Source: Mesostigma viride (taxonomy: Eukaryota; Streptophyta; Mesostigmatophyceae; Mesostigmatales; Mesostigmataceae). Taken from it: a stretch of 64,000 nucleotides of DNA. Position numbers and translations under genes: made by a program. Location of the stretch: contig RPFO01000288.1 in assembly GCA_009746045.1 (NCBI GenBank), forward strand, positions 1,292,911-1,356,910. The letters are read 5' to 3'. The notes under the pieces were generated by a model. It searched no databases, was not told where the DNA came from, and was given only the letters and a program-made list of their open reading frames with translations. This document shows positions 3,101 to 19,500 of this stretch, piece after piece; position 1 is the stretch's first letter; every line of letters starts with the position of its first letter.

Positions 3101-5703
3101 TCCGTTGATAATGTTCTTGCAGGAAGCCGGTCGTCAGGGTGGGGCAAATCTCCAGGGAGAGGGGGCTATCGCTGCCGGTGAGCCTGTGTCAGAGGGCGTG
3201 GTTGGAAGCGACGGCGATACTGCGAAAATGACACGCTTTAAGGAGCAAGCGGATGCTTATAAACTGAGGACGTTGGCAAAGCGGGTTGTGGCCGAGGTGA
3301 GAACGGAAACAGCCCCACCTGAGGTACGGAACCAGATGATGACTCTCCATCAAGTCGCTGAGTTGATCGTGAAGAATGCGTGCGCGCCCGATGGAGCCAC
3401 ACAGCCTGAGGAGATCCCGAGCGCCAAGGCCTTGATAAAGTGGATGCAGGAGAACCTGTTCGAGGGCAAAGGGAAGGAGAGGAAGTGTAAACTGTTGACG
3501 GTGACGGAGAAGGACGCCAAGACTCTGATCAAGATGTTGAAGGAACACGATGCCCGCCGGGACAAGTCTCCGAAGACCGCGAAGGGGTCGAAGAAAGCGG
3601 CTGAAGCAGCAGCGGTTGAGGGGAATGAGGTAAGTCTACCTCTGTTGTGAGGGGGGCTTTGTTCTTGAGGTCCACGTTTCATGTAGGTTGCGACGGCCGG
3701 CGTTTCTTAAGTGTGACACTTACTTCCTTTAGACTAACACTTACTTCCTTTCCTGATTTCGCATCGTTGAGGGAAATGAGCCAAGTGTACCTCTGTTGTG
3801 AGGGGGGCTTTGATCTTGAGGTTTAGGTTTCATCTAGGTTGCGACGGCCGGCGTTTCTCAAGTGTGACAATTACTTTATTCCTTTTGGTTATGCTTTCCT
3901 GATTTTTTCCTATCATTGTTAAGGGGAACGAGGTAAGTGTACCTCTGTTGTGAGGGGGGCTTTGATGTTGAGGTTCAGGTTTCATGTAGGTTGCGACGGC
4001 CGGCGTTTCTCAATCGGCATTTACTTTATTCCTTTTGGTTATGCTTTCCTGATTTTTTCGCATCACTGCAGTACGTGCAGGCCGAAAAAGCGACCCACGC
4101 GGCCATCATGTTCTCAATCAGGCTCGACCAGCACCCGCGCCGCGAGAACATGGAAATAGCTAGTTAACGTGGACTGCTGCCGTCGACGAACACCAGAAGG
4201 GACTCTCCGAAGCACTTGCGACCTACAAGGGGAAGGCGCTGAAGGGAAAGGGGAAAGGAAAGGAGGTGGAGGTTGCGGATGCTCCCGTGTCTCTGCTTGA
4301 GAAATGGGAGAAGTCCCCGGTGTCGCAGGATGATGATGACATCCTGGATGTGAACGATGAGATCGCGAAGGGCAAACGGTTGCGGCAGGAGCTTGCCGTT
4401 CAGCCGCGGGACCTCGATGAGATGTCCAAAGCCTTGGTGCATCGAAATCGGGTGTGGACAAGGAACCTGTTCGTTGGGCCTCAGAAGCTCCTCGCACGAG
4501 ACTTGCATCTGTCGAGAGGCGAGCAGAACGCCACCATTTTTGCCAGTTCGGAGTCCGACTACGGCCACGACAAGCTGGTGATTCCTGTGTGGCGGTACTC
4601 GTTCCAGTTTTTGGCTGACCGGTTCCCCAACACTTTTCATGAGTGGATGAAAAACGAGAACACCCAGCGTCAGGTCGCGCAACTTTTCGGGGAGATGGGG
4701 GGTTACGGACAATGAAGGCTGGCTACGCTCGCGCAATGACTGACAAAGAGATTGATATCTACCTGCGAACGAGCTCGGCGAAGGCGATGGCCGAAGCTGC
4801 TTCCACCAAGGTTCTGACAGGACGGGCCGATGTGCTGGACTCACTTAAGCCCGTGGACGTGAGAAAGGCCGCGCTTTTGGACAGTTTGTGCAAGTCCGCC
4901 TGGGAGATGGCTCCACTCGAGAAGAAGCCACCGTTGCCGCCAGCCATTTGCGGCTTTCTCGTGCTGGACGGGAACCACTTTACCACACTCATCAAATCGG
5001 TGAAATTCGAACTGGTCGCCCCAAATATGACGGTGGACCAAAGATCTGTGTGGTACAAGGCAATGCTGAACGGTTTCATGAAGGCGGAAAAGCTAAGGGT
5101 CGTTGCGCGGGGAGGGAAGGAGCAGGAAGTCACGAAGACCGTGGCCGCGGAGAAGCTGGAGGAGTGGGCAATGGATTGGACGAAATTCGGGGGGTGGACG
5201 TGCAGATGCTCAAGGGTGAGACCATCCTGCCGACCTGGTGGCAGATCCGTGAAGAGAAGGTAAGCCAAGTTGCGACCGCCGGCGTTTCTATAAGTGGTTT
5301 TCTCGTGTTATTTTCAGTATGCCATTAGTTTGGTAACGATGCGACCACCGGCGTTTCTATAAGGGGTTTTCATGTTCCACCTTAGTATGCCATATTTTGG
5401 TCAAGATGCGACCGCCGGCGTTTCTGTCAGTCGTATTCTTGTTCTCAGTTGAGTTGTGCTTATTTGGGAGGACTATCGATGTGTCTCTGCGCGTTGTTGC
5501 CCTACGGCGATGCAGGTTTCCGAACAAGTCGGCAAGATGATCGAAGTTGTCAGGCAGCTCGGGAACGCCATGAACGCCGAGGACACAGCCCAAGCCAAGG
5601 CAACGTGGGGCTCAGCGCTGGGGGATGTGCACCGGGCCTACCAGGCATATGGACCCGTCAAGAGAGGGAAGGGCGTGTCTATCCCAACTCCTCTGTACGG
5701 CAA
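180..5703 (+). CDS. 5' part of an unrecognised multi-exon gene, split by a transposon
   Basis: I do not recognise the product. Exons inferred from splice sites and frame continuity: 180 to about 650-700, 980-1669, 1939-2609, 2731-2787, 2917-2998, 3123 (or 3127)-3629, 4072-5259, 5516-5703. Most junctions keep phase; the 2998/3123 junction works only if the AG at 3126 is used. The protein is rich in Lys, Glu, Ala and Pro, with low-complexity linkers around residues coded at 2350-2560 and 3540-3620, and no signal peptide or membrane segment. Single-base frame breaks occur near 445, 2079, 4164, 4699 and 5191, each repaired by one extra base. The last exon stops at the left end of a 10.8-kb transposon and resumes at 16511. 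It may be a decaying gene, or an intact one with indel errors. Confidence 0.6.
706..5425 (+). repeat. Intronic 21-nt motif, 11 copies
   Basis: Copies start at 706, 846, 1756, 1869, 3054, 3687, 3838, 3990, 5269, 5338 and 5405. The consensus is close to GTTGCGACSGCCGGCGTTTC followed by T. All are on the + strand, all lie in inferred introns (the first is in the ill-defined end of the first exon/intron), and none lies in a well-supported exon. Copies at 3687, 3838 and 3990 belong to a tandem block; the other eight have unrelated flanks, so tandem duplication alone does not explain them. The core GCCGGC is self-complementary. Function unknown. Confidence 0.8.
3615..4070 (+). repeat. Triplicated exon-end/intron block (about 150 bp unit)
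   Basis: Three near-identical units each contain an exon-end-like GGGAA(T/C)GAG, a donor-like GTAAGTGTACCTCTG stretch, a G-rich segment, the intronic 21-nt motif, and an AT-rich run ending near an acceptor. In the middle unit the donor GT is changed to CC (near 3781), so it should not splice. The first unit holds the donor used at 3630; the third copy has an intact donor-like site at 3932. Confidence 0.75.
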
Positions 5704-5735
5704 CCCTACCAGCCATTTAGAATGTACTCCAGCAC
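5701..5735 (+). repeat. Left target duplication CAA and 32-bp terminal inverted repeat
   Basis: CAA at 5701-5703, then the TIR 5704-5735, identical to the reverse complement of 16476-16507. Just inside it, 5736-5747 reads AAGTACATTTTG, the reverse complement of the AAAATGTACT motif repeated in the central palindrome. Confidence 0.93.
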
Positions 5736-5850
5736 AAGTACATTTTGAGTTTTTCCAAGTTTCCTCTTTTTTGCTTGTTTCAAGTTCAGTTCTGCAAAAA
5801 AAGTGTCCCCATGGCCCCTGGATCTCATCTGGAGGTAGTTGAACTAGTAT

Positions 5851-5935
5851 ATGCTACAAAATACTACATTGTACTAGTTTGTACTACTTTGTACTACATT
5901 TTTACTATAATGTACTACATTGAACTACATTTGAA
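5851..5935. repeat. Subterminal GTACTA-rich repeats, left end
   Basis: About seven short imperfect repeats of TTGTACTAC / AATGTACTAC type lie within 250 bp of the left TIR. Such clusters are typical transposase-binding regions in CACTA-type elements; binding here is inferred from position and similarity only. Confidence 0.6.
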
Positions 5936-6665
5936 CAAATTTTAAGGCTGCTATGCAGTTGTCTAGTGTTCCAGACCCTTGAAAAACAGGTTTTGCCGCC
6001 TCTTTCGGCTCCCCGACCCTGCTCGCGCCCAGATTCGCTACACGAAAACTGTCGCAGCCACCGGACTAATGAGGCAATCCTGCCCCCCATTGCGCCTTGC
6101 GATCACATGTAATCAAGCAAGCATGTCATGCATACTGGTGTTGTCATAATTCATCTTGTAGCGATAAGCAAGTATTAAGTGAGACAGCTATATAATCAGG
6201 GACCATAGAAAGCGCCTCACAATCATGACACATGCACATGGCAAAATAGCAACTTCATTGTGGCAAAACTCTTGAAACTCACCAAACATCACCAACCACA
6301 AATTATATTGTTGCCTTTTATTAAGAGAGTTTTGAACAAGGCAAGTTGCAACACCCGGTTTCCAACCATGATGGACTGTGGGCACACATATTCCATGCAT
6401 GGCTATCTTGATGAAAGAGCCCGTGAGCTTTACTCTTAGTTTGCACATGCATAGTCCTAGTTGTCATGCCATTCTTGATGCATGATACATGTATAATCAA
6501 TGCCTGCGCGAAAACATGAGCCACAAAACATATGGTGTAAGACAATGTACAGCATCCTGCAAACATATCGCTCACCTGTGCTCCTTAATGAGCAGCACTT
6601 AACAAGACATCCCACCATGCCTCATAGACCTTGATAAGCATGGCATCGATAGCCAAGCTACTAAT

Positions 6666-9004
6666 CTAGCGCCGTTGCTTCTTCATGGAATACTCCACTG
6701 CTGGATAAGCGGGCTGCAAGTGCACCACGTTCTGCGCGAGAGATGTGACAGGCACCATCGTGATTGATTCAGAGTCGAAGTACTGCTGGTGACCTGCCGG
6801 TGGGGTTAGCACGAAAGCAGTGCCCTGCCCACTGTTACTGTATGTCGAGCGGCTTGTCACTGGAGGTGCATGCCGGTGGTATTCAACCTCAGGGTCCAAT
6901 GCCGTGCGAAGTGTCACGGGAGCTGCCTGCCTGTGGTATCCGCCTCCTGCAGCAGTGTACACCACCCGCTGATCGTCCACATATGTCACAGCCCTGGGCT
7001 GAGCCATGGCTGCATCATAGTGCAGCACCCTCTGGGGACTCGACCGTGTTGAATAATGATGCCCTTGCTGCTCCAGCCCGTGACTGGAGTCACTGGCTGG
7101 AGTACCAGGGACCACCAACGGAGTACGGTACTCGCGCTCCAGTCGCTCCACCCGCTCCCGCAGCTCCTTGACCTCCTTTCGCATGTCAGGGGTAGCGGGC
7201 GCCTCAACTTTTGGTGGTGACTGCTGCGCAGCAACAACCTCCTGCCCCTTTTTCTTCCTGCTCCCCACCGTTGCTGGTGCTGCAGCTGTGCCTTGAAGTG
7301 TGGCCAGCTTTGCATTTATAGCTGCGTGCTCCTGCTCCACCCTGGCCAGCCTCCCCTCAGCTAAGCCAAGCTTCTTGGCCAGAGCGGGCAGCGACTCGAC
7401 AGCCTGGCTCCCCCGCTTTGGCTTGGTGCGACCGCCCCCGAGGATGCTTTTGATATCGGTTTGAGCCTCGGCCATTGCCTCCCTCAAGCCATCATACTCC
7501 TTCTTGACCTCATCCAGAGACGAGCGCAAGTCGGATAAGTCGGCATCACCAGCAGTCACCATGGGAATGGCAGCATCAGCAACCACAGGTGGAATGGCAT
7601 GCTTAGATGCATTGGTGCAAGTGCGAACATGCTTCTCGCGCTTCACTGGTGCATGCTCCTGCTTGACCCTCCCCTTCTTCTCGGGTGGCGAGCCGTAAGA
7701 CTTGTCTGACCTGTTGTCACCGCCATCCCCGCTGCTGTTGTGCGGTGTCATGTCGTCGTCCTGAGTCCCTTCAGCTGCCCTTGAAGATACGGCAGGGGGT
7801 GCACATAGCAGGGGCACCGAGGGGAGTGAGGCAGGAAGTGGTGTGCTTGGCGGCGGCGCTGGGAGTGTGGCAGGGGGTGTAGACGCTGGCACCTTGTAGC
7901 CGACAGCCTGGATGTTGGGCAAGGAGGTGCATACAGGACAAAACAACCCAAGGACATTTTACCATGTGTTTATTTATTTATTATAAAAAGAGCCCAATCT
8001 ATCCACGGAAAAGGCACTTATATCAAAGAGGAAAGCATTCGTGCAAGACTTACACTCCAGCCTTTCTCTTGCGTGCAGGTAGTTTTTAATGCATTGATGG
8101 CAGAGTTTGGGTCATAGAATATTCCCGCGGCGGCTTCCACAGCTTGGGCCACCAGAGAAGTTTCTCGAATTGCCCCATGGGCGCCCAGATCCACTGCCAG
8201 CAACCGCGGCTTACACCACATTGCCGGAAACTGCTTCCCCGGTGATGTGGACGGCAGCGAGTAAAACCCCTGCGAATCGCTCAAAAGGGGCATTACCAGG
8301 CAGAACCACTGCTCCTCTCTATCATTCTTACCCCCCGTACGGACCAGGCCAGCGATTAGGGCCGAGGAGAATGTCGCCACGTCAAGCTCCATTGCAGAAG
8401 CCATGTCAGCGACAGCTGCCTGGCCATCAAACGTGACCAAGTCTCCGATTGCGAATGTGTCGTTCCCAGTTTCGCAGGCGACGAAGATGTCGGGATATCC
8501 CGGCTTTCCGGTTACCTGCCCCTTGCGCACGTCGAGATGAATCGCCTCGGAGAAGCTGGTATACTCTGTCAGCATAGTGGCATCCAGCAAGTACAGCTGA
8601 TTCTCACCATTCTGTCGCCTCACGCCTGCAGGCGTCCCCCCACCGACGTCAATGACGTTGATGACGGCACCTTTGTTTGCCGTCATCTTCGATGCCACCG
8701 CATTCATAGCCATTCTACGCACCCCTAAGTGGCCACCATACTTTACTAGGCATTTGCTGAACACGGGGGCCGAGCTAATAAGGCCACTCCCCGAGGCTGA
8801 CCTAGCATCCTGCGCCATGCGCTCCAACCCAGCGACAGCCCCCCGGCACGGAACAAAACTCTTTCGAAGTCTGGAGTTGTCGCCCAACACCCCCCCTTCC
8901 ACAGCGCTAGTTTCCTTAGCTTTTTCTTCGATCTTTACTTCCTCCAGGTTCTCTACCGCGGCAGGGCAGCCATTACCGACTTCCTCCGCCATGGCAGACG
9001 ACAT
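6666..9004 (-). CDS. Transposon accessory protein with coiled coils (unrecognised)
   Basis: Two exons: 9004-8054 (ATG, 317 codons) and 7907-6666 (413 codons plus stop), joined in phase 0 by a GTAAGT donor and a CAG acceptor; about 730 aa. I do not recognise the N-terminal half, which looks globular. The C-terminal half is Pro/Ala-rich, has a basic nuclear-localisation-like patch (PEKKGRVKQEHAPVKREKH), and three predicted coiled-coil stretches with heptad-like Leu/Ala spacing, the last MRKEVKELRERVERLERE. An in-frame upstream start at 9163 lies in the palindrome arm and is less likely. The gene diverges from the transposase gene across the palindrome. By analogy with two-gene CACTA elements, it may be the DNA-binding or regulatory partner; that role is inference. 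Confidence 0.75.
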
Positions 9005-9080
9005 CGCCGTGATTGCTAACCCCGACTCACGATGAACAGGAACTTTCCCTCTGCCTCCAGGCTGTCTTCTGCGCAGCTTC

Positions 9081-9407
9081 CATGAAATGTACTTCGTGAA
9101 ATGCATTTCGTGAAATGTACTAAGGAACGTGATTGGCCGGCGTTCGCTCGCCAAATCTCGCAAAATGTACTAAGGCACGTGATTGGTCCCGCAAAATGTA
9201 CTAAGGAACGTGATTGGCCGGCGAAGATTCTGTAGGGAATTTTAATTGTTGCAAACAGAATCTTCGCCGGCCAATCACGTTCCTTAGTACATTTTGCGGG
9301 ACCAATCACGTGCCTTAGTACATTTTGCGAGATTTGGCGAGCGAACGCCGGCCAATCACGTTCCTTAGTACATTTCACGAAATGCATTTCACGAAGTACA
9401 TTTCATG
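9081..9407. promoter_or_regulatory. Perfect palindrome (153-bp arms) as divergent promoter
   Basis: Arms 9081-9233 and 9255-9407 are exact reverse complements around a 21-bp spacer. Each arm carries three copies of AAATGTACTAAGG(A/C)ACGTG followed by ATTGG; read the other way this gives CCAATCACGT, a CCAAT box next to an ACGTG core. The core AAATGTACT recurs just inside both ends of the transposon: 16461-16475 (reverse strand) shares GCAAAATGTACT and AAATGTACTTCGT with the arms. The minus gene starts 77 bp and the plus gene 104 bp from the palindrome edges. No target duplication flanks it, so a separate inserted MITE is less likely. Promoter activity is inferred. Confidence 0.8.
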
Positions 9408-9510
9408 AAATGCCGAGGTAGCCATGTCTTCTTGCTTGCAAAATTGTGGCTGTTTGTGCGATTAGTGTCAAGGTCAGGTGTACGTTGAGCTATCCGGACT
9501 AGTGGCCGAC

Positions 9511-12500
9511 ATGGCGGTCGAAACGGAAGGTGTGCTATGGCTTTGCTGGGACATAATCGTGGCTCTCTGCTTCCTGGCTTTCGCTATCATGCTGATGGGA
9601 CACCATGGGAAGCGCAAGTCCGCAGCTGAAATGCTAAGCGGCAGCACCCATGCCGGCAGCCTAGTGACCGACGAGACGGTCGACTGTAAGTGCGGCCACG
9701 AGTGCATGAAGCCCATTAAAACATCACATCTCCAGGCATTGCGGAGCGCCTGGTTTGCGCCCGGGCGGAAGCAAGAGGACAGGAAGGCGGCGATAAAGCA
9801 GCAGCTGCACCAGGGGGGGTACGACGCCATAACGACCATGTCGTCATCTACTCGTCACAAGTTCGTTCATGACGCTGGTTTCCGGTTCGTTCTCGACGGG
9901 GGAGTCAAGGATAAGAACACAGGGTCTGTGACCCCTTTTCACTTTCAGGTTTGCGAGGCGGCATTCAGGCACTGCCTGAAAATTAGCAACCACGTTTGGC
10001 ACTCGTCGGTCCACGAGGTGGCTGATGAGCGCCAAGCGCGAGCCGAGGGACAGCACGTCATAGATGTAAGCGGCCACCATGGCAAGAAGCAGTCTCGCGG
10101 GGGCTGCAAGGAGAGGGGGCTGGAAGCACGGGCGCTTGCGGAGGAGTGGATTCGGCGGTGGTTGGAGCCCGCGGTGCAGAATGACCCGACAAACGGAACT
10201 ACGTTCATTGAGGAGCCATGCAAGCAGACTCTTTTCGCCACTTATGTGAAGGAGAACGAGAAGGAAGCCAACTTTCCCTTCGTGTCTCTCACTCTGTTCC
10301 GGATCATCTTTGAGGAGGTTGTTGCAACCAGTTATGTCCGCGTGGAGAAGTTTCGCACGAAGATCATGGGCGTGTGCAACATTTGCAGCAACATCAACAA
10401 CAACATCAATGCTGCCCGTCACACTGACACTAAACGATGGGAGTATTGGAAGGAGGAACTCGCCAACCACGAAGAGCTTTTTCATGTAGAGAGGAAGGGG
10501 TTTCTTGTCAGGCGCTTTAATGGTAAGAACGGTCACTATCATTCCATGTCCATGGACGCTATCGCTCACATGAGGACTCACATTCCTGCGGCGGCTGAGG
10601 CGCCTAAGGACTTTCTTTCCAAGCGAGACCTGACCGTACCTTACACCCTGATTTGTACGATTGCACACGGGTTGAGGACTTTTTTCTGGGTGGTCGCACC
10701 ATGGGTGATCAACAAGGCTGTGGCTGGTAATTCGGGCAGGATAACTGTCACCATCCTTGTTCGTCACATCATTGAAATCTGCGAGCAACAGTCGTGGAAC
10801 AGTGCCACGGACCCTGAGATAAGGGCTTACGGGCTGCCCAGAATTTTGGTCATGCAGGTGGACGGTGGCGGCGACAACATGAACCGCGAGGTTCTGGGGT
10901 TCGCCGCCGTCCTCATCATGAGAGGACTGTTTGACCGTGTCCGCTTCTGCAGGCTACCCGTTGGTCACACTCATATTGATTGTGATCAACGGTTCGGTTG
11001 GTTCGTCAGGTGGATGAATGGCTTAAAGAACAAGGTGACGGACAGGCCACCTGTGAAACTAATCACATTTGATGATGTGCTGGCGGGCCTTGGCATCGCA
11101 TTTGAGCATTACTACGAGCAGGGCCCGACAAACTCGATGCGCCAACTCAACCCGAAGAAGCCCCAAGCTGCGGTAAGACTTATATTAGTGTGGATGGCTC
11201 TTGATATCATGCTGGATTTCTAGTCTTCTCTATGTGCACACTTCATGTGCAGCCATATAGGTCATCCATGTGTGTTTTAACCATGTTGCATGTGCTACAG
11301 ATATTATGAGCAGTATTTACTAAGTGTGCTGGAGTCGTTGTTGCATGCTTGTTGTTTTTCACATGTTCACGTCTGCATGAACGCATCGTTGATACTAATG
11401 ATTATTCATATTGCATTATTCCTATTGCATGACTGTTCTATTGCTTGCAGATTGTGGACGCCGCACTGGATGTCACAACGTGGCTGAATGGGTGCATCCA
11501 CCGCGACTTTGGCCGGTGGGTGAAATCGATGGACGCATTTCCGAAGAAGCCAGCCGCGGGCGACACCCATGGCGCGGGCGCAGGTGCAGGCGGGGGCGGG
11601 GGCGGGGGAGAAGGCGCGGGTGCGGGCGCGGGCGCCACCCAAGGCGCGGGCGTAGGCGCGGGCGCGGGCGCCACCGCCAACTTGGATGATGAGCCAGCAA
11701 CCGAAGCCGAGAGGGAGAGGCACCGCTCTTCGAAGGTGTTCGATCTCGAAGTGTTTCTAGGGCCGGATATGAACGTGTATGTCCGCTGGCGCCTAGCCGC
11801 ATCAGAAACGTTGGTAAATGCACCGGTGAACAAGTGGCAGCCCACAGGGCCTAACGGCGAGGCTTGTGACGGGGTCACGCCCATTGGGTACACCCCGCAG
11901 GGAGATCCTGTCTATGGGTGCCTCCTCATGGAGCGTGGCAAGGCCCCCAAGGGAAGTCCCGGTCTAGCACCGCTTTTTGAATGGGACGAGGGCGGTGCCA
12001 GGAGACGTACCTGCGCTAGCCTTCACGGCCTCTTTCCCGACATCGTCTCCGCTGAGAAGCAGCAGTTGCTGGACAGATGGTTTGAGCAGGTGCCAAAGTC
12101 CGTGGAGGATGTGCGTGCCAACAACGAGAATCTGTTCGACATCATGGAGCAAAAGCTCAAAGAGCAGCGTGAACTGCAAGCGAACAAGGCGGTACCCTTG
12201 CCGCTGCGATCTGCAGGCGACCAGTCGGTTGCGCGGGCAACACGGGCACTGAGGCTGCCCGTAAACCAAGTCATCTCGCACGTCGCTTGCCCTGCCCGCG
12301 AGATTCAAGCGCAGATCAACCGCGCATGTGCGCCCGCTGCGCGAGGGAGCACATCAACGGCAACGCCCGCTTTGCGCACACTGATTTCTGGCAGGCACAC
12401 CTTCAAGGTGAATGGAAGCCTCATACGACGCGGCGACCTACTCGTTGTTAAGCGGCCAGCCGTCACCTGCGGGCAGGGAATGCCGTGGGCACCACACATG

Positions 12501-13346
12501 CTGGTGAAGGTCCTTGATCTGGAAGGCGATCGCACGGAGCGTGACAGCATTGTCGCCTCTCCTTACTACGCACCGACGTGGACGGGCCAGTTTTCTAGAG
12601 TGACATTAGGTGGCGGCAGCGCAGGGATGACGGTCCCCATTTCTGATGTACACCTGCAGCACTGGACAGTGGGCGGTACGGCAGAGGTGCACCAGCCTGA
12701 GCTGATCAGTACCGGCAAACTGTCAGCTGCCACGGTGGCGGCGTTGAAAGAGCACCCGCAGATTGACTTTGAGCATTACAAGACTGCCACCGCCGCCAGG
12801 GCAGCAGCAAAGGATGACTGCAATGCCTACTTTGCCGAGCATGGAGCACGTGCGCTTATCGGGATGCGCCTGTGTGCCCTGTTTCCGGGGACAGCGAGGA
12901 AGAGGGAGCGCTTCCATGGCTGGGTCACTAAGGTTCAGGAAAGGGGAGGTCACCTGCTCATCAAGGCGATGTGGGCTGATGGGCAGTATGAGGACTATCA
13001 TGCCCTGGAGGAGGTGACTCAGTTTGTGTGCGGCTGCCCACACCCAGTCGAGGCATTTGGCCGCGCTCGCTTCTTTCCACAGGAGGGTGGCACCGTGAAT
13101 GCAGGTGATGGCACCCACATGGACGATGCCGTCCCTGCTGTGCACAGTGACAGTGAAGGCGGGGAGGAGGAGGAAGAGGGAGAGGAAGAGGGGGAGGAAG
13201 AGGGGGAGGAGGAGGGGGAGGAGGAGGGAGAGGGGGAGGGAGAGGGGGAGGGAGAATGGGAGGGGGAGGGGGAGGAGGAGGAGGAAGAGGGAGAGGGAGA
13301 GGGAGAGGAGGATGCGGAATGGGAGCCGGGGATGACTGGTAGATGA
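9511..13346 (+). CDS. DUF7869-like RNase H-type transposase candidate, two exons
   Basis: Exons 9511-11172 and 11451-13346 join in phase 0 (GTAAGA donor, TTGCTTGCAG acceptor) to give about 1185 aa. Features in order: a hydrophobic run near residues 8-28; a Cys cluster (CKCGHEC, near residue 68); a long helical region; VMQVDGGGDNMNREV around 450; LPVGHTHIDCDQRFG around 485; a Gly/Ala-rich linker at the start of exon 2; a Tudor-like segment (GMRLCALFPG to WADGQYEDYHALEEV) near 1020-1080; and a long Glu/Gly acidic tail. The Asp-rich motif plus the GHTH..D..F motif match the DUF7869 family as I remember it, which I take to be a DDE/RNase H-type transposase fold. If translation starts at Met27 (9589) the hydrophobic segment is lost, which would suit a nuclear protein. 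Likely mobilises the element that carries it. Confidence 0.78.
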
Positions 13347-13727
13347 GACGGTGCCATCTACCGGCGCATGGAATGAAGTGGTACACAAGTTTACTCATGG
13401 TTATCGGCAAGTAGAGCATGCACGCCTGGCCTAGTTGCATTTAAATCAATGAGTTGAGTTTGGAGAGGCTGCAGTTTGCTTGGATGAAGAATGTGTTAGC
13501 ATGGCCAAACTTTTATGGCTTGTAGCCAAATCCTCTTGGGGTATGCAGTGTACTAGCGGTGTGCAATTGCGAGGATTCCTGTCTTGTAGCGATGTGGCCT
13601 CTCACCCTGCAGCCTGGTAGATGTGTTGGCATGCAGCCACCCATCATTGGTCATCCGATCTGGTGTGATTTGCATTTGCACACCTTGTATTAAGGCCATG
13701 ATTTAATATTGTCTTGTTATTTTTTAT

Positions 13728-14416
13728 GTGTATATGCGAAAAGAGGCATAATATGCTCATATATAGTGCTAGCAAGTGTCACTACCTTTACCTATGCCTG
13801 ACCTTACAAGTTGAGGATGGTCTAATGTAGTGGCAAACAGGTTATTTACAACAATTCACAGTTTTCTGACTTAGTTTGAGGCAACTATACTTACCAAAAT
13901 GCTTGAAAAAGGCAAAAATTGCACCATTTATGCTAGCGAACGTCACTATTTTGAGATCAAACGGGGCCCAAACTTGGCCCATGGTCTAATCTAGTGGTGT
14001 TTAGGTTGCTTCCAACATTTCATAGCTTTCTGACATAGTTTGATATTGTTTAGTAGCTTACACTGAGCAAAATGCTTGAAAATGGCAAAAAATGCACCAT
14101 TTATGCTAGCAAACGTCACTATTTTGACATCAAACAGAGCCCAAACTTGGCCCATGGTCTAATCTAGTGGTGTTTAGGTTGCTTTCAACATTTCATAGCT
14201 TTATGACGTAGTTTGATTTTGTTTAGTAGCTTACACTGAGCAAAATGCTTGAAAATGGCAAAAAATGCAGTATTTATGCTAGCAAACGTCACTATTTTGA
14301 GTTCAGATTGACCCCAAACTTTGTGCATGGTCTATTCTAGTGGTAATTAGGTTGCTTGCAAATATCCATGATGGTTTGACGTGATTTAGTACTGTTTCCT
14401 ATTTATTACTATTTAA
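13728..14416. repeat. 173-bp tandem repeat, continued at 16314-16440
   Basis: About four diverged units with period 173 bp; the shared landmark GCTTGAAAA(T/A)GGCAAAAA starts near 13901, 14074 and 14247, and each unit contains GCTAGC(A/G)AACGTCACTATTTTGA. The next unit is displaced to 16314-16440 by the nested TTAA element. The stretch 13347-13727 before it is AT-rich, presumed 3' untranslated sequence of the transposase gene. Confidence 0.8.
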
Positions 14417-16313
14417 GGGGACGGTCCCGGCGCGAATATTTTGGCGCCGAAAAATTCGCGGTACCCGTCCGTACCGTGAAAAAGTGGTGCACGGGGCGCG
14501 CACCCCTACCGGAGCTGGCCATGGCGACGTGCTTTCAGGCAGAGTAGAAAAAGATAGCTCGCGGAATGCAGAGAAACTGAGCGAATCTTAAAGACGATGA
14601 GTAAATGATACTAATTCGTAGCGGAGTTCGCGTTTTTTGCAGTGTCGATGATTTTATTGATGACCATCGCCACGGGGGTCCAATCTGATGTTTTCGTCGA
14701 GAGGAATAAATTAGAATGCACGCTGGCGGCGGTGATTGTCAGGTTTTATGGGCTTTACCTAGCGTCAAGGATGCGTTTAAATCGTTATTGGTAAAGCTTT
14801 AAAAAATTTGCTGGGTTTCGGCAAGATTTCCGTCATGATCGGTAAGACACTCTCCAGGCTCGCGGGATGCGCGTCTTATTATTCCATGGAAGGTTGTTCT
14901 TTCTTGCGCCGCTGGGCGAAGGACAATTCCGGTAATGGTACGATCGTGTGATCAACGTGATCCTATGAATGTTTCGCTTCCTTTATGGGTTATCAACGCA
15001 AGTTTTCGGCTTCTTTCCGTGCAGTTAGCGCAAGGTATAATGCCATTCCGTGCTGCGCATCGCCAGATTCCTGGCACCTTTCAGTGGTTTTTATGTACGT
15101 TGCATGGCTGGGATGTGTCAAAGCGTGACCGTGGCATATCGTCAAGTTGTCAGGGATTTGCTGAGTGGTTTCTTGGAAGGAGCTTGCTAACAGCACTCAG
15201 TTTTGTGTGAATATTGACGCGGCCTTTCTTAGCAGAGGCTTCATTGTGGTTAGAGGCTCACAAGCTTGAGTTTGTTTCTTGGCAAACAATTGCGCTGGAA
15301 AGAAAGGTGGCAGTGGTTTTTCTGAGGGGCATACTGCATGGGTGGAACTGCACGTAGGTAGGGGTTATCGTTGTCTTGTTGGCCTTTCTCCCACTAAAAT
15401 GGGAGAGCCCTAATTCATATGCTAGCAAGGCAAGGTAACCATGGTAAGAAGCCTTGGCAAGCAGCATGTATGATAATTCTGCTTTCTCTGTGGACTGTCT
15501 GTTGTTACCCTTGTTGGGCAATTAGTGGATATGGCTTTCTAGGGTGTGTTTGAGCTTGGTTTTGGGATGATGCCCACACCATAAACCTGAAATATGCTTT
15601 AGAAGTGTCGGCTAGGCATGTAGAGCTACCTGCCTCATTGTTGTGCACACATGCAACAGGTTGCCCGTGTCGAGGTAAGGCAAGGGCACATGACGTGCCC
15701 AGCCACCTCCTTGTACATTGTGGTCGAATGGGGCATGGTCAGGAGCCTTTTGGATGGCATAGGAAGTGTTAGTGTGCCTTAATACTCACTAATGCCTTCC
15801 TTAGCGTCTGCACAGGTGGCCAACTGCCAAAATTAATAACTGCTACAGCTGAGCTCAGAATGCCACCAAACTTTGACAGTGCCTTCTATGGTCATGACAG
15901 AATTTGACTATTACTTTTTAGGCCTAATTGATGTGTTATGAGTGTGTATGGGGGCGCACCGCCTAAAAAAGCGTATTTTTGGCCCAAAAATTAATAACTC
16001 GAAGGGATGTGCTGATTTTGTTGATCCAATTAGGTAGAAACCATGTCCCATGACATTTTTATATGGGTATTACTTTTTTCATGCAACTGGTTCTCCCACT
16101 GTTCTGGGCAAGATGTGCCCCGGACAGCGTTTTTTTCTATTTTTAGCTCATAGCCGGTGTATGGCTGGGGGTAGTACCCCCAACAAGTGGTGGTATGCAT
16201 GCCCAAACATCATGTTTATGGCCCCCAAACATCATTCAGTGGTTGTCAGTTGCATTTCTGTAGTTATTAGGGGGGGTAAGTTTTGATATATTTCTATGGG
16301 ACCCTCCCCTTAA
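14413..16313. mobile_element. Non-autonomous TTAA-flanked DNA element (1.9 kb)
   Basis: TTAA at 14413-14416 and at 16310-16313 flanks near-perfect 12-bp inverted ends, GGGGACGGTCCC (14417-14428) and GGGACCCTCCCC (16298-16309), with one mismatch. Removing it with one TTAA restores the 173-bp repeat phase. No long coding region is present inside; I see only short, unrecognised open frames. TTAA duplications point to piggyBac-like or Kolobok-like elements; which one cannot be told without a transposase. Confidence 0.8.
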
Positions 16314-16475
16314 TTTAATTTAAAATGACAAAAATGTACCTTTATTGCTAGCAAATGTCACCAAGATGACGTCCGATCGATACCAAACTTTGTACGAGGT
16401 CTATTTTGGTTGCAAACATCATGCATGACAATTTTCAGCATAAAAAGACAAACTTCGGTACGAAGTACATTTTGC

Positions 16476-16510
16476 GTGCTGGAGTACATTCTAAATGGCT
16501 GGTAGGGCAA
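16476..16510 (-). repeat. Right 32-bp terminal inverted repeat and target duplication CAA
   Basis: TIR 16476-16507 followed by CAA at 16508-16510. The adjacent internal sequence 16461-16475 holds the AAATGTACT motif shared with the central palindrome. Confidence 0.93.
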
Positions 16511-19500
16511 GATCTGGGCGATTGTGAAGCCCTTTTGGCAGAAAGGAGAGCAAGCCAAGGCAGAAGGGGACGGCGCCGGCGACAAGGCAGGGGGGGCTGA
16601 AGAGACGGACAAGTGGGGGCCGGACCAGAAGAACTTCATGCAGCGCTGGCTGTTCTGGTGTGAGGACCCTTTGAAGCCCGTTGTCGACGGCAAGCCGGCG
16701 ATCGCCGAGGATATCGCGGCTCGGCAAGACTTCCTTGACGCGCGCCCTAAAGACAAGGCGCACGAACTGTCCATTTTCACCGCGCATCGGGAACTTGCGA
16801 GTTTCCAGTATTTCGACAGCCTGATCCAAGCGCCGATCATGTCCTGTGAGGCCCCTCCCAGCAACCTGATAAAAATAATGGAAGTCGCCAAGAATTTGAA
16901 AGAGGCGGCCGTGCAATTCGCCCACATCAAGTTCCTGGAGAAGCCCGAGCTGATGGCCGCTTGCAAACAACTAGACGGGACCTTCAACCCCGTATTGGTG
17001 AGGGAGCACGTGTTTGGCGTGAAGCTGAAGGCCACCGACCTCGACGTTGAGGCCACGAAGTTCATCGCCGAGTGCCGCCTGACCAGAGACTTTTGGCGGG
17101 TGGTCGTCACGGCCACGAGGGCGATCATTCTCACGTTGAGGGACCTTCCGCCGGCTCAAAGGAAAGTGGTCGACCAGAAGGACTGGAAGTTCCCGAGAGG
17201 GCTGCTCGCTTCCCACCCCCGTCATTTGTATGACGATTTGGGTGTGAAGACCAAACATCTGCTGGGTGTGCCAAAGGAGGCGGCGGCGGAGGTCGAGAAG
17301 GAGGTCGAGGAGGCGTCGGAGGAGGGCAAGGGGACTACCAAGGCCAAGAAGGGGTGGCGGGACAGGTTGGAAGCCTACAGCGATTGGAAGGGGGTGAGGA
17401 TGGGATCCGACTGGATCGCATACAGGACAATGGCATGGAAGGAAAACGAAAAAAGAAAGGATCTGGTTGTGACGAAGGTGGTGGACGAGTTGTGCACGGG
17501 GTCTGACAAAATTCCTCGGTCGCTGAAGGACCAGGCGTTTGCTGTGCTGGACCTGGCAGCTGACAGCAACGAGAAGTGGAGGAACCTGCGCAAGTGGGAC
17601 CCAGACTGCATTCCGGAGGAGCGCCACATTCCCAAACCCTCCTCGCATTTGAACCCGGTCGTGTGGGATGTGGTTGACAAGATGACCAACGCCCTTTTTA
17701 GGGGACCCTGCAGAGTTCTGCTGGTGTTCGGGGAGCTAGCCCATATCCGCCGGTGGAAGCGCCTGGTCCGCCTTATCAAATATTGGCTTGCTGAAGATGG
17801 GTGGGAAGACCTCGCCTACTTTAAGGACGACGATTCTTCGTCTGATGAGGGTGATGATTCGGAGAAGGGGGAAGAGGGGGAGGAGGAAGTGGGGGAGGCG
17901 GATGAGAATGAGGATGAGAAGGAGGAGGATGAGGAGGACGAGGAGGACGAGGAGGACGAGGAGGACGAGGAGGACGAGGAGGACGAGGAGGAGGATATTG
18001 CTGAGGGGCACCCGCCCGGGGTGGGTGAGGGGCAGGCGGAGGGGGAGAAAGGGGATGGGGATGGGGAGAAGGGAGGAGGGGGGAGGGGGAGAGGGACGGG
18101 GGAGGAGATGGAAGGGGAGGGAAAAAGCGCCGTCGGGATGATGGAGGCTCGCGTGATGAGACAATGGGGGGGATGAAGACAACAGGGGGGGAGGTAAGCG
18201 CCAGCGTGCTGGTGAAGGAGACTCGAGGCCTGTCGTTGGAAACGCCGGCGGGCGTATCTGTGATGAGGAGGGGGATCGCCAGCGGGAGGGAGGCTCGCGG
18301 CCTGTTACTGGAAACGCCGGCGGGCGTATCTGTGATGAGGAGGGGGATCGCCAGCAGGAAGGAGACTCGAGGCCTGTCGTTGGAAACGCCGGCGGGCGTA
18401 TCTGTGATGAGGAGGGGGATCGCCAGCGGGAGGGAGGCTCGCGGCCTGTTACTGGAAACGCCGGCGGGCGTATCTGTGATGAGGAGGGGGATCGCCAGCA
18501 GGAAGGAGGCTCGCGGGCTGTTACTGGAAACGCCGGCGGGCGTATCTGTGATGAGGAGGGGGATCGCCAGCAGGAAGGAGGCTCGCGGCCTGTTACTGGT
18601 AACGCCGGCGGGCGTATCTGTGATGAGGATGGGGATCGCCAGCAGGAAGCAGGCTCGCGGCCTGTTACTGGTAGAGCCGGCGGGCGTTCCCGATTTACGG
18701 GAGGCGGTCGTGTCCGACAGATGGGAATGAGGCCTCGTCAGGATTCATGGGGACCGCCGGTTGAGGGGACCCCCGCCCTCGCCTCGGTTTCTTTGGTTCT
18801 GGATGACGATCCCGTACCGTCGTCAGGAAGGACGGTTGTGATGACTTTGCCCCCCCGCTCGACGGGGATGGAGCAATGCCCGGACACGATACTGCTGAAT
18901 GAGGATGACGATCCGGAGCCGTCGGCTGACACGGATTTTGTTGCGAGCACCCCACTGCAGAAGAGGTTTTTGGAGGCTCGTAACGTGGAGGGTCCGCGGA
19001 CAGTCGCAGGTGGAGGGCCGGCGTTTGCCGGATTGATGCGCCCGACTGAGGTTGTCGATGTTGAGGCGCCGCCAGGGACATCGGCCGGATACTATACCGA
19101 ATTGACCGCGGGTTTGGGTGACACCATGCGTCCACGAAGGATGCCCTTCCACGCTCCAACGGTACATTCGGCCGGTAATTTCATTTTCAATAAACGAGTT
19201 TAATAAGTACCTTAATATATTTCTACATAAGTTTTTTTGCATCAGTCCATGGCTTCATTGATTTCTCACACGACCCTTCCGTATTCATGTTAATTGGCAT
19301 CTGCTTACGTGCAGGGAAAGGCGAAGAAGAAACTCCAGTTCGGTTTCCCCGTGGATCCGCGTCTGGGACTGTGTCCGGAGAGGCCGGCCGTGTTGTTGGC
19401 CAGGCCGCGGTCGGCGAACCAGTTGCACAACCGGGGGCGGGAGGGGACGAGCTCCCACCCAACGCACCAACCCACGCACCAGCCTTACCGTGCGGTCAGC

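Follow-up and report, generated by a model that had tools for sequence, protein, structure and literature searches.

A stretch of 64,000 bp from the genome of the streptophyte alga Mesostigma viride (contig RPFO01000288.1), hereafter the window, was analyzed, and a complete inverted-repeat DNA transposon was found at positions 5704-16507. Two genes diverge within it, with a palindrome between them: one encodes a protein with a DUF7869 domain, and the other encodes a coiled-coil protein that is called the partner here. Judged from its sequence, the transposon family is real and recently active, and we are highly confident that the element is a DNA transposon that was active recently, is probably autonomous, has a DUF7869 transposase of the three-aspartate (DDD) type and most likely moves by cut and paste. 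The window copy contains the following features:

5701..5703, no strand: left target-site duplication CAA, read in the sequence; 3-bp duplications are also present in the 12 other scorable copies
5704..5735, plus strand: left terminal inverted repeat, 32 bp, beginning CCCTACC; the left 397 bp are common to 15 copies
5721..5940: left subterminal region, where AATGTACT is present three times and TTGTACTAC-like units of ~10 bp are repeated in tandem
6666..7907, minus strand: partner gene exon 2, coiled coil, with a basic stretch seen by eye; stop codon at 6666-6668
8054..9004, minus strand: partner gene exon 1, 317 amino acids, no Pfam match
9078..9410: central palindrome between the divergent genes, 333 bp, with arms of 156 bp, eight AATGTACT sites and six CGTGATTGG/CCAATCACG boxes
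9511..11172, plus strand: DUF7869 transposase exon 1, with C59/C61/C65, CxxC at 289-292 and proposed catalytic residues D349/D451/D492
11451..13346, plus strand: transposase exon 2, a C-terminal extension without Pfam match, with an acidic tail
13817..14412: array of a 173-bp tandem repeat, split by the nested insert and continued from 16310
14417..16309: nested element of 1,893 bp between two TTAA copies, with ends GGGGACGGTCCC/GGGGAGGGTCCC, outside the family
16476..16507, minus strand: right 32-bp terminal inverted repeat; the two AATGTACT sites of this end are at 16464 and 16483
16508..16510, no strand: right target-site duplication CAA, read in the sequence

A preliminary description of this DNA had proposed perfect 32-bp inverted ends starting CCCTACC, and the repeats at 5704-5735 and 16476-16507 do match each other perfectly, while the longest exact inverted pair was only 14-18 bp when the window was randomised 20 times with a second-order Markov model. 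When the flanks are fused at a single CAA, an unbroken open frame of 638 amino acids results, with 83 codons upstream of the junction, and this fits a precise insertion into a reading frame. The element thus appears to have landed precisely within a putative gene. The interrupted frame consists of 5453-5703 joined to 16511-18176, with a long acidic tail at its end, and the part that was searched (16506-18176) had no Pfam match below an expectation value (E) of 0.07.

The genome assembly (440 Mb in 2,243 contigs) was searched for further copies with the left 397 bp of the element as the query, and the best 40 of 262 candidate places were scored. Fifteen of these, including the window copy, match the full query at 99-100% identity, so the ends are not the single occurrence that would have spoken against a family; the other 25 match only the first 242 bp, at 88-89% identity. 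The right 198 bp were matched in the best 40 of 286 candidate places. Ten of the 14 other full-length matches were taken whole, and four were taken by their ends only. A perfect 3-bp duplication was present in all 13 copies that could be scored at both ends (CAA, GTG, CCT, CTT, TGA, TTG, CCT, TCC, CTG, CGA, AGT, TAT and TGC); the TGC duplication was read by eye in a copy whose left end has one base changed, and in the two unscored copies the right end lies in Ns or is not at the expected place. The CAA duplication described earlier is correct for the window copy, but CAA as a target preference was dropped, since 12 different triplets occur among the 13 copies and the target rule is 3 bp, not CAA. 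No strong target motif was found in the 12 tabulated sites, the most biased position being a G directly after the duplication (8 of 12).

All 11 copies that were read through have both genes open, and their DNA is 99.9-100% identical. One copy (C1391) is 100% identical over 8,907 bp to three others. Substitutions occur in only five columns across the 11 copies, all in one copy, and the remaining differences are changes in length. Open genes together with this degree of identity point to very recent activity, and the element may still move. Such identity over 8.9 kb would also be expected if the copies had arisen by segmental duplication or assembly error rather than by transposition. This explanation is refuted, however, at the 12 sites where different flanks start exactly at the ends of the element, each with its own perfect 3-bp duplication, and its probability overall is negligible.

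The family is shorter than the window copy. Of the latter's 10.8 kb, which had been given as the size of the family, 1,897 bp belong to a later nested insertion including its TTAA, and 10.8 kb was dropped as the family length because this insert inflates it. Once the insert is removed, the 173-bp array runs on in register and the element measures ~8,907 bp; the lengths of nine of the 10 other copies that were read whole, 8,901-8,913 bp, agree with an element that lacks the insert.

The transposase gene encodes 1185 amino acids (1181-1187 among the 11 copies) and has one GT-AG intron at 11173-11450, with splice sites inferred from the sequence. The DUF7869-like character proposed earlier for the candidate transposase was confirmed by the Pfam match to DUF7869 (PF25273) at E 4.9e-13, with 49.5 bits against a curated cut-off of 26. 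Exon 1 had no other Pfam-A match at E up to 10, in a search whose filters lose weak matches. In NCBIfam the two exons had no match better than E 0.3 and a database relative (P0003) had none, and no homologue of the window protein was found with its own sequence in a set of 5.8 billion proteins. Residues ~900-1090 (window 12400-13060) resemble SH3-fold chromatin readers by eye, for example in MWADGQYEDYHALEEV, without Pfam support.

A confident structure model of a database DUF7869 relative has the RNase H fold of integrases and mariner, with three aspartates (D342/D421/D463) at suitable places. The RNase H fold that the preliminary description suggested looking for is present in the model of the relative, while for the window protein it is likely by homology to that model only. 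D451 and D492 of the window protein align with aspartates of the relative, and the alignment of D349 is less sure. As regards retroviral integrases and mariner (Mos1) transposases, no solved structure was matched by the sequence of the window protein at E up to 10, and a profile of relatives reached just one, RFX5, with no better than E 1.1. In viral structures Foldseek found nothing at E <= 0.001. Among the 50 matches listed in a structure comparison (VIA list), there was no family of eukaryotic transposases other than mariner, which excludes nothing. The case for DUF7869 as a transposase domain is strong though indirect.

The separate coiled-coil gene of the preliminary description was also recovered, on the minus strand. 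The partner protein has 730 amino acids in total, with an intron at 7908-8053 whose splice sites are likewise inferred, and the matches of exon 2 to coiled-coil-type Pfam families all lie below their cut-offs.

The subterminal GTACTA repeats noted earlier are indeed repeated, but the motif is better written AATGTACT. It occurs 13 times in the window, against 0.98 expected, and all 13 sites lie within the element. Eight of them are in the central palindrome, and the left and right ends have three and two, respectively. The palindrome is absent from the preliminary description. Its arms are complementary at 155 of 156 positions, and it contains every CGTGATTGG/CCAATCACG site that the window has, six in number, which resemble CCAAT boxes. 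The palindrome is a candidate two-way promoter and a candidate protein-binding site. A nested foldback element was also considered and was dropped, as no flanking duplication was seen by eye and the motif is the same as that of the ends.

The group of places with 88-89% identity consists of derivative elements. In seven of these copies the left ends were inspected and begin CCCTGCC, CCCTGGC or CCCTGCT; the right end of the group is nearly unchanged, and 3-bp duplications were found in all three that were checked at both ends. In the one derivative that was read inside (from ~3.3 kb on), transposase residues ~169-512 are gone, including all three proposed catalytic aspartates. The partner gene had no match in any of five derivative stretches, four of which were the first 3.4 kb of other copies. 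The three left and two right AATGTACT sites are kept, with the left part and the rest read in different copies. Such a core-less derivative was most likely moved by transposase supplied in trans, unless its core was lost after landing; its movement implies that the ends and the transposase need not be linked. Derivative L072 has a central cluster of ten AATGTACT sites, and it and derivatives L054-L056 contain long low-complexity arrays near the left end.

The movement of a type that lacks the catalytic core could also be taken to mean that the DUF7869 gene is a passenger, and that the transposase is the partner gene, whose exon 1 has no known domain, or is encoded elsewhere in the genome. We regard this as very unlikely, because the predicted fold of the DUF7869 family is integrase-like, because in the bacterial units described below a DUF7869-type gene is enclosed by long inverted repeats, and because the partner gene is likewise missing from the derivative stretches that were read.

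With the DUF7869 protein as the probable catalyst, the element would most likely move by cut and paste. The transposase would consist of an integrase-like RNase H core behind cysteine motifs, which are probably zinc-binding, and a possible winged-helix segment. Probably together with its coiled-coil partner, it would bind the AATGTACT sites in and beside the 32-bp ends, and the bound proteins would pair the ends and excise the element, which would then be inserted with a stagger of 3 bp, showing no strong preference for particular target sequences. The sites in the palindrome probably let both proteins regulate their own two-way promoter, or serve internal assembly.

The M. viride genome was also searched for DUF7869 matches in general. 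The best 150 of 275 candidates were scored, and all 150 were above the cut-off without inner stops; they fall into several size classes, and 13 of them lie at copies of this element family. No match was found in 14 control genomes. Other DUF7869 families of the same genome (L073/L074 from 1737, L075 and L076) are 23-27% identical to the transposase of the element. One of them (L073/L074) shares a block of 8.4 kb with clean ends and without recognisable inverted ends, and the end structure of the element is therefore not to be generalised to all DUF7869 families.

Beyond this genome, 1,281 DUF7869 proteins were matched in one search. With a profile of relatives, 14 loci were found in bacterial genome records, including Desulfocicer vacuolatum DSM 3385; several of the loci are in metagenome bins, where foreign DNA is possible, while the Desulfocicer locus (L015) is from a named strain. 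Five of the 14 loci have inverted repeats of 37-43 bp on either side of the gene and form units of 2,066-2,343 bp (L015 at 9733-11856, L012-L014 and L016). Two of the five proteins encoded by these units were checked against Pfam and both match DUF7869, and in NCBIfam two bacterial proteins had no match better than E 0.19. By eye, perfect 4-bp A/T-rich matches flank two of the five units. No long inverted repeats were found around the gene at the other nine loci, although several of these are fragments or cut by a contig end and one of them (L017) shows such an end. The units are possibly an undescribed insertion sequence family. Like the element they hold a DUF7869-type gene; they differ from it in their length of 2.1-2.3 kb and in beginning T-GGGG. 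No DUF7869 relatives were found in plasmids or in viral contigs, where 11 stretches matched a short pattern and none proved a relative on translation.

The DUF7869 proteins of animals (the named matches being from sea slugs and corals) and of bacterial records have the same order of motifs as the transposase of the element, namely CxC..C, CxxC and a core ending GHT....D..FG. They are 18-19% identical to it, and only the element has the extension of ~600 amino acids and the partner gene. The element suggests that the role of the widespread DUF7869 family is moving DNA. A further proposal, which we put forward tentatively and judge slightly on the doubtful side of even, is that DUF7869 is an unnamed superfamily of DDD transposases across bacteria and eukaryotes, and that the branch in this genome gained a two-gene element whose binding sites are repeated in a near-perfect palindrome, acting both as a self-regulating two-way promoter and as a site of internal assembly. 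A central cluster of ten such sites is kept in the one core-less derivative that was read inside.

The superfamily may instead already have a name. The main named candidate to include DUF7869 is Sola of Repbase, which is reported (Bao et al. 2009) to have a DDD transposase, 4-bp duplications and members in bacteria and eukaryotes. DUF7869 has three suitably placed aspartates and relatives in bacterial records, and the 4-bp matches at two bacterial units, read by eye, would also agree with Sola. The element, on the other hand, has duplications of 3 bp in all 13 scorable copies, and Sola was compared by description only. That DUF7869 transposases belong to Sola or to another named group, with this element as a new member with its own ends, is a distinct possibility, if a rather doubtful one.

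The layout had been likened to that of CACTA (EnSpm) elements, with termini and a transposase that differ, and this held, the transposase belonging to a different Pfam family. Two genes, 3-bp duplications and subterminal repeats are shared with CACTA elements. Closest by its ends is Volvox Idaten, which reportedly has CCCTA ends and 3-bp duplications and is called CACTA-like. Pfam includes an EnSpm model, but DUF7869 was the only domain found in the transposase in Pfam-A at E up to 10; a remote relation may exist. The element could accordingly be a divergent CACTA element of the green-algal Idaten kind, with DUF7869 as a very diverged EnSpm transposase, but this is improbable. Idaten is named in the reference lists of PMC4158355, PMC7139988 and PMC11790086. 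According to excerpts of PMC12730594 and PMC10045372, EnSpm elements have CAC..GTG termini and 3-bp duplications, whereas the element has CCCTACC. The C(2)C pair that marks the CACTA/Mirage/Chapaev group in excerpts of PMC12730594, and that is given for CACTA together with H(3-4)H in excerpts of both papers, does not occur between the proposed second and third aspartates of the window protein. Unlike CACTA/EnSpm, moreover, the element has divergent genes around a palindrome.

Of the other superfamilies (those of Repbase are listed in an excerpt of PMC4455052), two differ in their target sites or termini. KDZ/Zisupton and IS3EU are eukaryotic and, like the element, have inverted ends, but excerpts of PMC12730594 and PMC10045372 give Zisupton an 8-bp duplication and IS3EU usually 6 bp with TA..TA termini, in contrast to 3 bp and CCCTACC here. 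For Zator/ISAzo13, compared by description only, the 3-bp duplication length fits, while the only Pfam match of the transposase at E up to 10 remains DUF7869. The term DUF7869 was not found in a search of 5.39 million papers.

The description of a multi-copy two-gene transposon family with DUF7869 as the likely transposase was thus upheld. DUF7869 proteins are abundant and have no function in Pfam; the element offers readable ends, a target rule, a partner gene and derivatives, and together with the near-identical copies this makes the function of DUF7869 directly testable. Eukaryotic DNA transposons also gain a possible connection to bacteria, and the element, which shows little target preference, is a candidate tool for insertion.

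For a brown alga, an excerpt of PMC12477816 describes giant DNA transposons that contain nested inserts as well as accessory genes. The nested 1,893-bp element of the window copy has 12-bp inverted ends (GGGGASGGTCCC) and is perhaps piggyBac-like and non-autonomous. The tenth copy that was read whole (C1568, L036) contains another TTAA-flanked insert of 1,722 bp, at element position ~476, with TTAACTCGTCGTCTGTCCC at both ends in inverted orientation.
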